34,929 nucleotides of DNA from Candidatus Poribacteria bacterium. Lineage in GTDB: Bacteria > Poribacteria > DTPJ01 > WJIO01. Positions within the stretch are counted from its first letter, which is position 1, and every line of letters starts with the position of its first letter. Location: contig WJIO01000323.1 of assembly GCA_014730235.1 (NCBI GenBank), positions 1 to 34,929 on the forward strand. Direction: 5' to 3'. Below, one piece after another: positions 8,418 through 13,578 of the stretch. The notes under the pieces are model-generated. The model was not told the origin of the DNA and ran no database searches. It saw only the letters and a program-made list of their open reading frames with translations. A program made the position numbers and the translations under genes.

Positions 8418-8623
8418 TGCTGAGAATTCTAAAAAATCTCTAAAACCAATGTTTATAAGAATTCAGCATGAAGAAACAGATGAAAATGCTCAAAGAATAT
8501 AGTTCTATGTCATTCCTGCTTCAAGATTTTTGAAAAAGCTTGAGCAAAAAGGAATAAGAGTTTCGCAGGAATGACAAGCTGAGAAAATTTTCAAATTATT
8601 ACCATACTCAAGCCGGAAGAGCC
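8418..8623 (-). repeat. Long-form copy of the dispersed palindromic (MITE-like) repeat
   Basis: Reverse complement begins GGCTCTTCCGGCTTGAGTATGGTAATAATTTGAAAA, contains TGTCATTCCTGC...GCAGGAATGACATAGAACTATATTCTTTGAGC and ends in the TGCTGAATTCT...AGAATTCTCAGCA stem-loop; near-identical to copies at about 13.63 and 34.78 kb. Confidence 0.85.
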
Positions 8624-9069: not shown

Positions 9070-10308
9070 ATGTCAGATAATACAAAAGATTATGAAATCC
9101 TAAGAGAACTGGGAAAACAGGTGGCAGAGATCGCCGCTCTGCCAGAACAACAGGAAACTATCAAACTATGGAAAGCTCTTAACGGGCTTAATCCGGTCAG
9201 GGGTATGGTTATGATTGACCAGATTCCATGGCATGAGATGAATGTAAACGACGAACTTACAATCCAATCGGAAGATCCTTTCTGTCGGGGTATTGAGTGG
9301 CAGTTACGAAGAACCCTGTATCTATGGAAACACATGCCTGTAGATATGGTGGTTCAACCCTATGTAACTCTATCCAAATCTATCAGCAATACCGGTTTCG
9401 GTGTGCGAGTTATTGAAGAACGAGCGGTAACTGATCCACGAAACGGCGTGGTAGGACATCGTTATATTGATCAGATGAGCACCGAAGAAGACATAATGAA
9501 AATCCAGATGCCAAAAGTCAGCTATAATGAAGAAGCTACCAAAAGAACTGAGGAACGGGCAAGAGAAATATTTGACGGCATACTGGATATATACATGCAG
9601 GGGTCTTTACCCGGTTTTGCCCCCTGGGATAGAATTGTCCAGTGGCGCAGTCCAAATAATATGATTCTGGATCTGGTGGACAGGCCTGAATTTATGCACA
9701 AGATTATCTCCAGGGTAACAGATGCCTCTCTCTATATGCTGGATCAACTTGAGGAACAAGGCCTTATGGGATATAATCCCAACAGGATTCACTGCACCGG
9801 CGCATTTTCCGGGGAACTCCCGGCCCCGGGATTCGATCCTGAACGACCCAGGGCCAAAGATAACTGGACTATGGGTATGGCCCAAATTTTCTCCACTGTT
9901 TCACCAACTATGCACAAGGAATTTGAGATTGACTATGCCGCCAAGTGGTACGAACGCTTCGGACTGGGATATTACGGATGCTGTGAACCGTTGGACGAGA
10001 AGATAGACATTATTCGGGAACTACCCCACGTCAGGAAAATATCCATGAGTCCATGGGTTGATGAGGAAAAAGGTGCAAGTCAGATTGGATCGGACTTTGT
10101 TTACTCACGAAAGCCCAATCCGGCATTTCTGGCCTGGGATACATGGCGACCTGATGTCGTTGAAGAGGCCCTTCGCAATACCCATGAAACCTGCAAACGT
10201 CATAACTGCCCGGTGGAGTTTATTCTTAAAGACATAAGTACAGTCAATTATGAACCCCAGAGATTATGGGAGTGGGCGGATATTGCCATGAAGATCGTTA
10301 AAGAGTAG
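9070..10308 (+). CDS. Uroporphyrinogen decarboxylase (URO-D)-superfamily protein, methyltransferase-like
   Basis: 412 aa; overall pattern of COG0407-like proteins (late GYYGCCEPLDEKIDIIRELPHVRKISMSPW). Preceded by GATGGAGGAAAT RBS. Confidence 0.65.
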   Translation: MSDNTKDYEILRELGKQVAEIAALPEQQETIKLWKALNGLNPVRGMVMIDQIPWHEMNVNDELTIQSEDPFCRGIEWQLRRTLYLWKHMPVDMVVQPYVTLSKSISNTGFGVRVIEERAVTDPRNGVVGHRYIDQMSTEEDIMKIQMPKVSYNEEATKRTEERAREIFDGILDIYMQGSLPGFAPWDRIVQWRSPNNMILDLVDRPEFMHKIISRVTDASLYMLDQLEEQGLMGYNPNRIHCTGAFSGELPAPGFDPERPRAKDNWTMGMAQIFSTVSPTMHKEFEIDYAAKWYERFGLGYYGCCEPLDEKIDIIRELPHVRKISMSPWVDEEKGASQIGSDFVYSRKPNPAFLAWDTWRPDVVEEALRNTHETCKRHNCPVEFILKDISTVNYEPQRLWEWADIAMKIVKE

Positions 10309-10927
10309 CACCATCTCCGATACCCGATAAACCATAATCAAAATCCAGGTTTCCGTAAAATGCGAAGTGAGTCTGAGCTGTTCCATTGCCCAGGTTCCCT
10401 TCGCATCCTTTAATATGGATAATCTCACCATTTTCAAACAAAAACGGTGGATAAAATCCGTGACATCTCTGGTGATCGTAATAACCGTAATGATAATCCC
10501 ACCCATGTCTTTTGATTCGCTCAGGTGTGGTGGAAAATCCCCATTCCAGCTTTCCAATCTGGCCTGTAACATATCCGGCTTCCCGGGCCATATTACCCAG
10601 AAAAACGTCATCAGCCCGGGCCTCAATTCCGGTGTTGTTGATTAATTCCCTGATCTTGTCATAAGTCATCGTTCCATTGCTTAATCCGATATAAATACCT
10701 GCCCGTGTTAAGCTCCATCGACCAGCATGGGCATCATGTATCCCGCTAATCAGGCTGGCCCTGGCCGGAGCGCAGAAAGCGCAACCGTAGAAATGCCTGA
10801 ATAACACACTATCGTTTGCAATGCTGTCAATATTTGGAGTTTCAAAATGTTTTTGACCGTAACAGCTTAACATCCCGCGTCCCAGATCGTCGGCATAGAT
10901 GTATATAATATTGGGAAGTTTACTCAT
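10298..10927 (-). pseudogene. Truncated sulfatase (N-terminal about 209 aa only)
   Basis: NIIYIYADDLGRGMLSCYG and formylglycine motif CAPAR (CAFCAPARASLISG) typical of type I sulfatases; the C-terminal half is absent and the frame ends at the 3' end of the convergent URO-D gene. Confidence 0.75.
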
Positions 10928-11042: not shown

Positions 11043-11196
11043 AAGACTATAGATATTAAAACATTATATGCCAATATACAATGATTTTTATCAGTTTATA
11101 GAGAAACCAAAAATTTTCCTTGAAAAATTGTGGTCTTCTATGTATTGTATTAACTCAAGTCTTATGAATACAAGTCTTTTATAAGGAGAATCAAAG

Positions 11197-13578
11197 ATGC
11201 GATTTTTCATTTATCTATTTCTAATTACTATATTTTTGTTTTCTGTGGCTTTTAACGTTACCCAGGCAGAAACAACCCTTTTGTCCGAACTACATATAAG
11301 CAGTAACTATTCTGATATAGCTTTTTCATGGCCTTATGTTTATGTTTCTACGGTATGGGGTATGGAGATTATTGATGTCTCAAATCCGTCATATATAATC
11401 AAACCAGGTGAGATATCTACCCGGGGTGAAGCCCTGGGTATATTTGTAATCAATGGCTACGCGTATATAGCTGATGCTTATGCTGGACTTAAGATAGCTG
11501 ACATATCAATCCCCTCTAAACCTGAGATAGTAGGTAATGTGGATATCCCCGGAGATGCTCGAAAAGTATTTGTTAAGGGTGATTTTGCATATATTGCCAG
11601 CTACAGGAGCGGATTGCAGGTGGTGGATGTTTCCATACCATCAAAACCTGAGTTAATATCAGAGGTAGAATCCGGCTGGAAAACTAAATATTCCTATGAT
11701 GTAACTGTTTCCAACAATAAAGCTTATGTGGCCGACGGCACTGGTGGGCTAAAGATAATAGACATTTCAGATCCATATAACCCTCAAATGATAGGTTACC
11801 TGGATAATCTTCCCGGGTCTGCCAGGGCTATAAACCTTTCAAAGAACAAGGCATATATGGTTTGTTCCAGCGAAAAAGTCTTGCATATAATTGATGTGTT
11901 ATATCCAGAAAAGCCTGTGCTTTTGAATACCATTGATATTGCCAGCGATGCTCTGGATGTCTGCGTTCAAAATGACTATGTTTTTATCGCCTGTAAAAAA
12001 GGGCTGGGTATCCTGAAATGGAATAATACAGGTTTTGATTATGAGATAATAAAACTCGATGATGAAGCGGAATCTTTGGCAATACACGAGGACAAAGTAT
12101 ATATGGCCGTTGGTAATAGTGGTTTAAAAATTGTGGATATTGCATCTGGAAGTGAGATATTATCAGAAAATATTTCATATTCAGGAGAGATAATTGATAT
12201 TTGTGTTCAAAATCATTATGCATATATAGCGACGCTGGAAGATAATATTATATTAGCAGATATATCTGATCCTGGTAATCCCTATATCCTGAATAAAATT
12301 TCTTTTCCCGGTGAAACCTGTGCCTTGTTTATAAATGAAAATTATCTTTATATAGCTTCCGGCTCTGAGGGATTGATAATTGCAGATATATCAATCCCTG
12401 AAAATCCCGTAATCGCAGGAATAAAAGACACTCCAGGAACAGCCAGGGATGTATTTGTGGTAAATAATTATGCATATGTTGCCGACTCAGGACGTGGCAT
12501 GCAGATTATAGATATATCCGATCCAGCCTATCCTGTAATATTAGGCGATGTTCCAACTGAGAGTTCAACTCGTGGAATTCATGTTTCAGGTCAATACGCC
12601 TATGCAGCCGATTATTCCAGAGACCTGAAAGTTATTGACATATTCGATCCCCGTAGACCTTATGCTTATCCATCTATTGAGATGGAAGGTGCTGCCTGGA
12701 ACGTATACATTTCCGCTGGTTATGCGTATGTAGCCTATGGTGGGCAGGGGCTGAGATATGTTGATGTATCGGATCCACTTAATCATCAATATGTAGGTTA
12801 TGATCTGGATACCCCTGGTCTGGTTCATGACGTATATGTTTCCGGCGAATATACATATATCGCTGACGGCAGAATGGGAATGGTTGTGAAAGATGTTTCA
12901 GATTTAACTGATCCTGTTGATATATACCATACCTTTGATACTCCTGGTGTAGCTGAGGGTGTATTTGTTGCGGATAATCGGATATACGTTGCTGACACGT
13001 ATGGGATCTTAATATTTCAGGTAACTCCGGGGCAAAATTTTTATTCAGTTTCTGAAGTTATAGATGGTGACACTATAAAATTAAGAAATGGAAGGTATAT
13101 CAGGTATATTGGAGTTGATACGCCAGAAATAGATGAACCTTATTATCAGGAAGCAGCGGAAGCTAATAAAGAATTCCTGAAAGATATGAAAGTTAAATTG
13201 GAATTTGACGTTGATTTTATGGATGATTATGACCGGGTTCTGGCTTATGTATATTCTAATGGTATATTTGTAAACGCTGAGCTTGTAAAATCAGGATACG
13301 CCAGGGCTTCCCCTTATCCTCCCAATACCAGATACGCAGAATCCTTTAAACGATATGAATCAGAGGCGAAGGAAAAATACGTGGGAATATGGAATCCCCT
13401 GTGGGATGTAAACAGCGACGGTGTTGTAGATATAGAAGATATTGTCACTATTTGTTGCAATATGGGTAAAATTATTCCGGGAATGTTAGGGGATGTAGAC
13501 TGGGATGGCAAAATTGATCATATTGATCTGAATATTGCTGTTGGTTATTTTGGTACAAGGTATGGTATAGAGGAATGA
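11197..13578 (+). CDS. Secreted LVIVD-repeat beta-propeller with thermonuclease (SNase) domain and C-terminal dockerin type I-like module
   Basis: Signal peptide; about 13-14 repeats of the type YAYIAD..GLKIADISIPSKPEIVG; SNase motifs VIDGDTIKL, IRYIGVDTPE, DDYDRVLAYVY; two DxNxDGxxD-type repeats DVNSDGVVDIEDI and DVDWDGKIDHIDL. Confidence 0.88.
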   Translation: MRFFIYLFLITIFLFSVAFNVTQAETTLLSELHISSNYSDIAFSWPYVYVSTVWGMEIIDVSNPSYIIKPGEISTRGEALGIFVINGYAYIADAYAGLKIADISIPSKPEIVGNVDIPGDARKVFVKGDFAYIASYRSGLQVVDVSIPSKPELISEVESGWKTKYSYDVTVSNNKAYVADGTGGLKIIDISDPYNPQMIGYLDNLPGSARAINLSKNKAYMVCSSEKVLHIIDVLYPEKPVLLNTIDIASDALDVCVQNDYVFIACKKGLGILKWNNTGFDYEIIKLDDEAESLAIHEDKVYMAVGNSGLKIVDIASGSEILSENISYSGEIIDICVQNHYAYIATLEDNIILADISDPGNPYILNKISFPGETCALFINENYLYIASGSEGLIIADISIPENPVIAGIKDTPGTARDVFVVNNYAYVADSGRGMQIIDISDPAYPVILGDVPTESSTRGIHVSGQYAYAADYSRDLKVIDIFDPRRPYAYPSIEMEGAAWNVYISAGYAYVAYGGQGLRYVDVSDPLNHQYVGYDLDTPGLVHDVYVSGEYTYIADGRMGMVVKDVSDLTDPVDIYHTFDTPGVAEGVFVADNRIYVADTYGILIFQVTPGQNFYSVSEVIDGDTIKLRNGRYIRYIGVDTPEIDEPYYQEAAEANKEFLKDMKVKLEFDVDFMDDYDRVLAYVYSNGIFVNAELVKSGYARASPYPPNTRYAESFKRYESEAKEKYVGIWNPLWDVNSDGVVDIEDIVTICCNMGKIIPGMLGDVDWDGKIDHIDLNIAVGYFGTRYGIEE

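Follow-up and report, generated by a model that had tools for sequence, protein, structure and literature searches.

Classical staphylococcal thermonucleases are small, single-domain proteins, and most of what is known of cohesin-dockerin systems comes from cellulose degradation, with little understood of their use elsewhere. Cohesins and dockerins outside cellulose degradation have been found in ANME archaea, among others, and what they do there is unclear (PMC9012536). LVIVD repeats have been reported from surface proteins of archaea and bacteria, among them Methanosarcina acetivorans (PMC2447325), and 4jsn_B is given as their homology template in a modelling study (PMC8078820). Here, we describe an open reading frame (ORF) in which LVIVD, SNase (thermonuclease), and dockerin modules share one chain, a combination that is unusual or new although each of the component families is well known. 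The window analyzed is the whole 34,929-nucleotide stretch of contig WJIO01000323.1, from a Candidatus Poribacteria genome assembly of 5.5 Mb in 451 contigs (92% complete, 5% contaminated). Its placement in Candidatus Poribacteria is based on the UvrC encoded in the window, for which the identities to sequences from this group are 69%, 58%, 56%, and 56%.

The ORF occupies exactly 11197-13578 on the + strand, is complete from its ATG start, and encodes 793 aa. Judged by its sequence, it is a real gene for a predicted secreted protein of an uncultured Poribacteria genome, in which a signal peptide is followed by 14 LVIVD repeats, an SNase domain, and two dockerin-type Ca2+ loops, as listed here.

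11183..11188, + strand: Shine-Dalgarno-like (ribosome-binding-like) AAGGAG, 8 bases 5' of the ATG, read from the sequence
11197..11268, + strand: putative Sec-type signal peptide, aa 1-24, hydrophobic, MRFFIYLFLITIFLFSVAFNVTQA, read from the translation
11269..13032, + strand: LVIVD region of 14 repeats (about aa 25-612) that probably folds as two 7-bladed beta-propellers (Pfam PF08309, self-match)
13033..13401, + strand: SNase (thermonuclease) domain, aa 613-735 (PF00565, 3.6e-20; PDB thermonucleases, E about 1e-16)
13102..13104, + strand: R636, equivalent of SNase catalytic R35 (alignment)
13117..13128, + strand: D641-T642-P643-E644, containing the equivalents of D40, T41, and catalytic E43 (alignment)
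13234..13236, + strand: R680, equivalent of SNase catalytic R87 (alignment)
13405..13575, + strand: C-terminal type I dockerin (aa 737-793), both of its Ca2+ loops complete (PF00404, motif, GH48 dockerin match)

The first-pass annotation of this DNA had claimed about 13-14 LVIVD-type repeats, a nuclease domain with catalytic R/D/E and R residues, and two dockerin-type Ca2+-loop repeats, all in one secreted protein. This three-part architecture is confirmed by the ORF, by Pfam, and by our reading of the residues and loops; all three families (LVIVD, SNase, and Dockerin_1) were located by domain search, Dockerin_1 just below its cut-off, and the architecture was not found to be common in the genomes sampled. 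The Pfam search detected no Por_Secre_tail, FlgD_ig, or CHU_C sorting domain in the protein, the kind of C-terminal domain that marks type A cargo of the type IX secretion system (T9SS). In searches of plasmids and phages, no match spanned more than 80% of the protein, the best plasmid matches being to the LVIVD part and the best phage matches to the SNase part.

For the LVIVD region, Pfam returned a PF08309 match with E=2.7e-84 (276.7 bits) in 11 separate stretches, with nine repeats individually above the cut-off, and 14 units of ~42 aa each were counted by eye from the translation, in agreement with the number first claimed. When the protein was compared to itself, the top peak was found at a lag of 42 and the second at a lag of 295, i.e., about seven repeats, which suggests that the region may form two 7-bladed beta-propellers. 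An AlphaFold2 model generated from the single sequence, with no alignment, had a mean pLDDT of 40, too low to inform on the fold. The label "adhesion-like" that had been attached to the propeller is a guess.

The SNase domain is assigned by a PF00565 match at residues 635-733 (E=3.6e-20; 72.8 bits against a cut-off of 21) and PDB thermonucleases aligning to residues 619-733 with E about 1e-16. In these alignments, D625, R636, D641, T642, E644, and R680 are the counterparts of D21, R35, D40, T41, E43, and R87, so that the catalytic residues first proposed line up where they are expected. All 24 aligned SNases, which come from this genome and others, share the same residues at D21, R35, E43, and R87, while substitutions are seen at D40 (21 D, 3 N) and T41 (17 T, 7 A). 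With the full catalytic set conserved, the catalytic competence of the domain is well supported by sequence. The nearest NCBIfam model, NF047694 (NucI), scores 83.6 bits, under its cut-off of 250 bits. Among the matches listed, the closest SNase domains are mainly from outside the phylum (50%, G235), with one poribacterial domain at 49%.

The dockerin call is marginal by score and complete by motif, since the Dockerin_1 (PF00404) match at residues 737-780 stays under the cut-off of 22.9 bits (18.2 bits in the full protein, 22.7 for the module alone) and all ligand positions are present. The two loops, DVNSDGVVDIED at 737 and DVDWDGKIDHID at 766, lie 29 residues apart, and both are 12-residue loops with D or N at positions 1, 3, and 5 and D at position 12. 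A profile search of the genome, in which the neighbours of the module in the frame were included, gave 23.3 bits, and the best match to a solved structure was a cellulosomal GH48 dockerin (E=0.0012). At least two types of dockerin loop occur in this genome, RSNDAI..LR and VDI.D.V, and the first loop of the present module is similar to the latter.

Profile searches of the same genome found one SNase gene, LVIVD only in the ORF described here, and 17 cohesin and 17 dockerin matches, the cohesin count having been proposed in the first-pass annotation as a check. The proteins behind most of these cohesin and dockerin matches were read individually, and the majority of those examined have a C-terminal T9SS type-A-like sorting domain (Por_Secre_tail/FlgD_ig). 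Like the protein described here, an enzyme-like protein similar to heparinase II/III has a terminal dockerin and lacks a sorting tail. Cohesins and dockerins are often found in one chain, which, together with the presence of at least two loop types, means that some of them may have structural or self-associating roles. Dockerin loops of the form RSNDAI..LRIAAGL are carried by L213, L214, L215, and L216; per Pfam, L213 and L215 each have two cohesins, one dockerin, and a T9SS-like tail, the dockerin of L213 being placed between its cohesins by the genome search, and the frames of L214 and L216 give both cohesin and dockerin matches. Another protein, L217 (G000:C201), combines a cohesin and a T9SS-like tail with four SnoaL-like domains, an odd cargo for a surface protein.

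We hold with middling confidence that the ORF encodes an exported, Ca2+-dependent nuclease that is held by cohesins in an extracellular layer and degrades extracellular nucleic acid. The protein would be exported via its Sec signal peptide, and its SNase domain, as expected from the family, would hydrolyze DNA and/or RNA with Ca2+. The terminal dockerin, once loaded with Ca2+, would bind a cohesin on one of the organism's own exported proteins, many of which are predicted to carry T9SS-type tails, and this binding would keep the nuclease in the extracellular layer as opposed to letting it diffuse away. At the opposite end, the LVIVD double propeller may offer a binding surface for some ligand or act as a spacer. 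The protein would most likely serve to break down extracellular nucleic acid, either for nutrients or to remodel a DNA-containing matrix. Tethering to an extracellular assembly, as first claimed, is plausible because the genome has 17 cohesin matches, many with a T9SS-type tail, and the ORF is dockerin-ended with no tail of its own; the two make a candidate pairing.

The same C-terminus could be read otherwise, with the protein acting as a free secreted or periplasmic scavenging nuclease whose EF-hand pair is a Ca2+-stabilized cap that binds no cohesin. The sub-threshold dockerin score speaks for this reading, and in a relative from another Poribacteria genome (L078) the SNase is followed by a single loop, possibly a cap as opposed to a paired dockerin. 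Nevertheless, both loops and their spacing of 29 residues fit the comparable dockerins of the same genome (28-34 residues), and cohesins are plentiful there, so we consider a free nuclease somewhat unlikely.

To place the proposed cohesin-held nuclease among its relatives, we consider what LVIVD and SNase are joined to elsewhere. No LVIVD-SNase fusion was seen among the matches listed for 194 genomes with the whole protein as query, nor among those listed for 387 genomes with the junction region as query (the two samples overlap), and a scan of genome contigs with the whole protein found no relative. Across four other LVIVD-rich phyla and a fifth, with one to four genomes each, no SNase was found in a long ORF. 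LVIVD proteins of other Poribacteria (L056 and L061) end in an NPFNP-type sorting domain, as do L042 and L053 from two genomes outside the phylum; L046, a further poribacterial protein truncated by the contig end, has such a domain by sequence. In the translated ORF described here, this sorting-domain slot is occupied by the predicted SNase and dockerin modules. The LVIVD proteins of the relatives examined are large and sorting-tailed and have no enzyme domain, which would suit a surface adhesion or assembly protein with the propeller and dockerin as working parts and the nuclease domain serving to bind nucleic acid or anchor a matrix more than to cut; since pure binding would not need the catalytic residues, all of which are retained, we regard this as improbable.

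SNase domains themselves are present in 46 of 85 Poribacteria genomes, mainly in short ORFs. In three other Poribacteria genomes, an SNase occurs with a dockerin or a single dockerin-like loop and with different partners: two have the order SNase, lamin-tail domain (LTD), dockerin, and the third has an SNase and then a single dockerin-like loop (L078). This recurrence suggests that the pairing of SNase with dockerin-type modules is not a one-off. The arrangement of L175 (G016:C149) and L177 (G075:C112) resembles the PADLOC candidate C3a212 "SNc+LTD," and L224 (G313) also has SNase and LTD. Outside the phylum, the four longest SNase ORFs among the matches listed (515-1102 aa) have neither LVIVD nor dockerin, their partners being phosphodiesterase, ComEC-like competence, purple-acid-phosphatase-like, and lamin-tail domains. 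In L222 (G148:C6; 1095 aa), the SNase domain lies within a ComEC-like competence protein, and L221 (G167:C31; 1102 aa) is a type I phosphodiesterase/sulfatase-like protein with an SNase as its final domain. The fusion of SNase to phosphatase, phosphodiesterase, and ComEC-like domains in distant genomes fits the use or uptake of nucleic acid better than it fits defence.

The first-pass annotation had offered both scavenging and defence as uses, and of these only scavenging gains, from the predicted export of the SNase and its phosphatase and ComEC-like partners elsewhere. An extracellular anti-phage or anti-competitor nuclease is very improbable and a defence role is not supported, because the SNase region does match the PADLOC candidate model C3a212 (3e-16) but this sole match runs through the SNase part (model positions 49-178 of 279) in a protein in which Pfam finds no LTD, and the neighbour genes examined (Rnf/Nqr, TIM-barrel, uvrC, and similar, metabolic or without assigned role) include none of defence.

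Two further observations concern the surroundings of the ORF. An interspersed palindromic repeat with the core TTGAAAATNNTCTCAGNNTGTCATTCCTGC, often followed by the inverted GCAGGAATGACA, has core matches at 8565, 10981, 13644, 25538, and 34805, i.e., five copies in 35 kb where none is expected by chance, and it is also present on other contigs of the genome. Two direct copies flank the ORF; an origin as a mobile cassette was considered from these and dropped, as the repeat is scattered across the window and other contigs. Additionally, a sulfatase gene at 10301-10927 (- strand) is apparently cut short, matching profile positions 1-127 of 301, and its ORF ends where the convergent gene at 9070-10308 ends.

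The proposed cohesin-held nuclease could be part of something broader, namely a cellulosome-like cohesin-dockerin system on the cell surface of Poribacteria, in which exported cohesin proteins with T9SS-type tails would hold dockerin-ended nucleases and other enzymes, SNase and docking modules would have been joined more than once, and extracellular DNA or RNA would be captured and digested in place. We put this forward as speculation that is unlikely to hold in full. If the nuclease is docked cargo, it would provide a concrete and testable example of a non-cellulose cohesin-dockerin system in an uncultured phylum. Within the open-licence literature searched, no paper was found that combines dockerin with thermonuclease or Poribacteria with dockerin.

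Compared to the described systems, the protein shares with the staphylococcal thermonuclease family the fold as judged by sequence, the catalytic D/R/D/T/E/R set, and predicted export; it differs in that its SNase is preceded by a long propeller region and followed by a dockerin. With the LVIVD cell-surface proteins of M. acetivorans and others (PMC2447325), it shares a tandem array of 42-aa repeats and predicted export, whereas the LVIVD proteins of the relatives examined have a sorting or FlgD-like C-terminus in place of an enzyme and a dockerin. The SNase-LTD-dockerin proteins of other Poribacteria (L175, 735 aa; L177, at least 423 aa) have the phylum, the SNase, and the C-terminal dockerin in common with it, but there a lamin-tail domain lies between SNase and dockerin and LVIVD is absent, while here LVIVD is present and the lamin-tail domain is absent. 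Finally, as in the non-cellulosomal systems of ANME archaea (PMC9012536), dockerins are found on diverse non-cellulase proteins with cohesins encoded in the same genome, the difference being that the candidate docked enzyme here is a nuclease.
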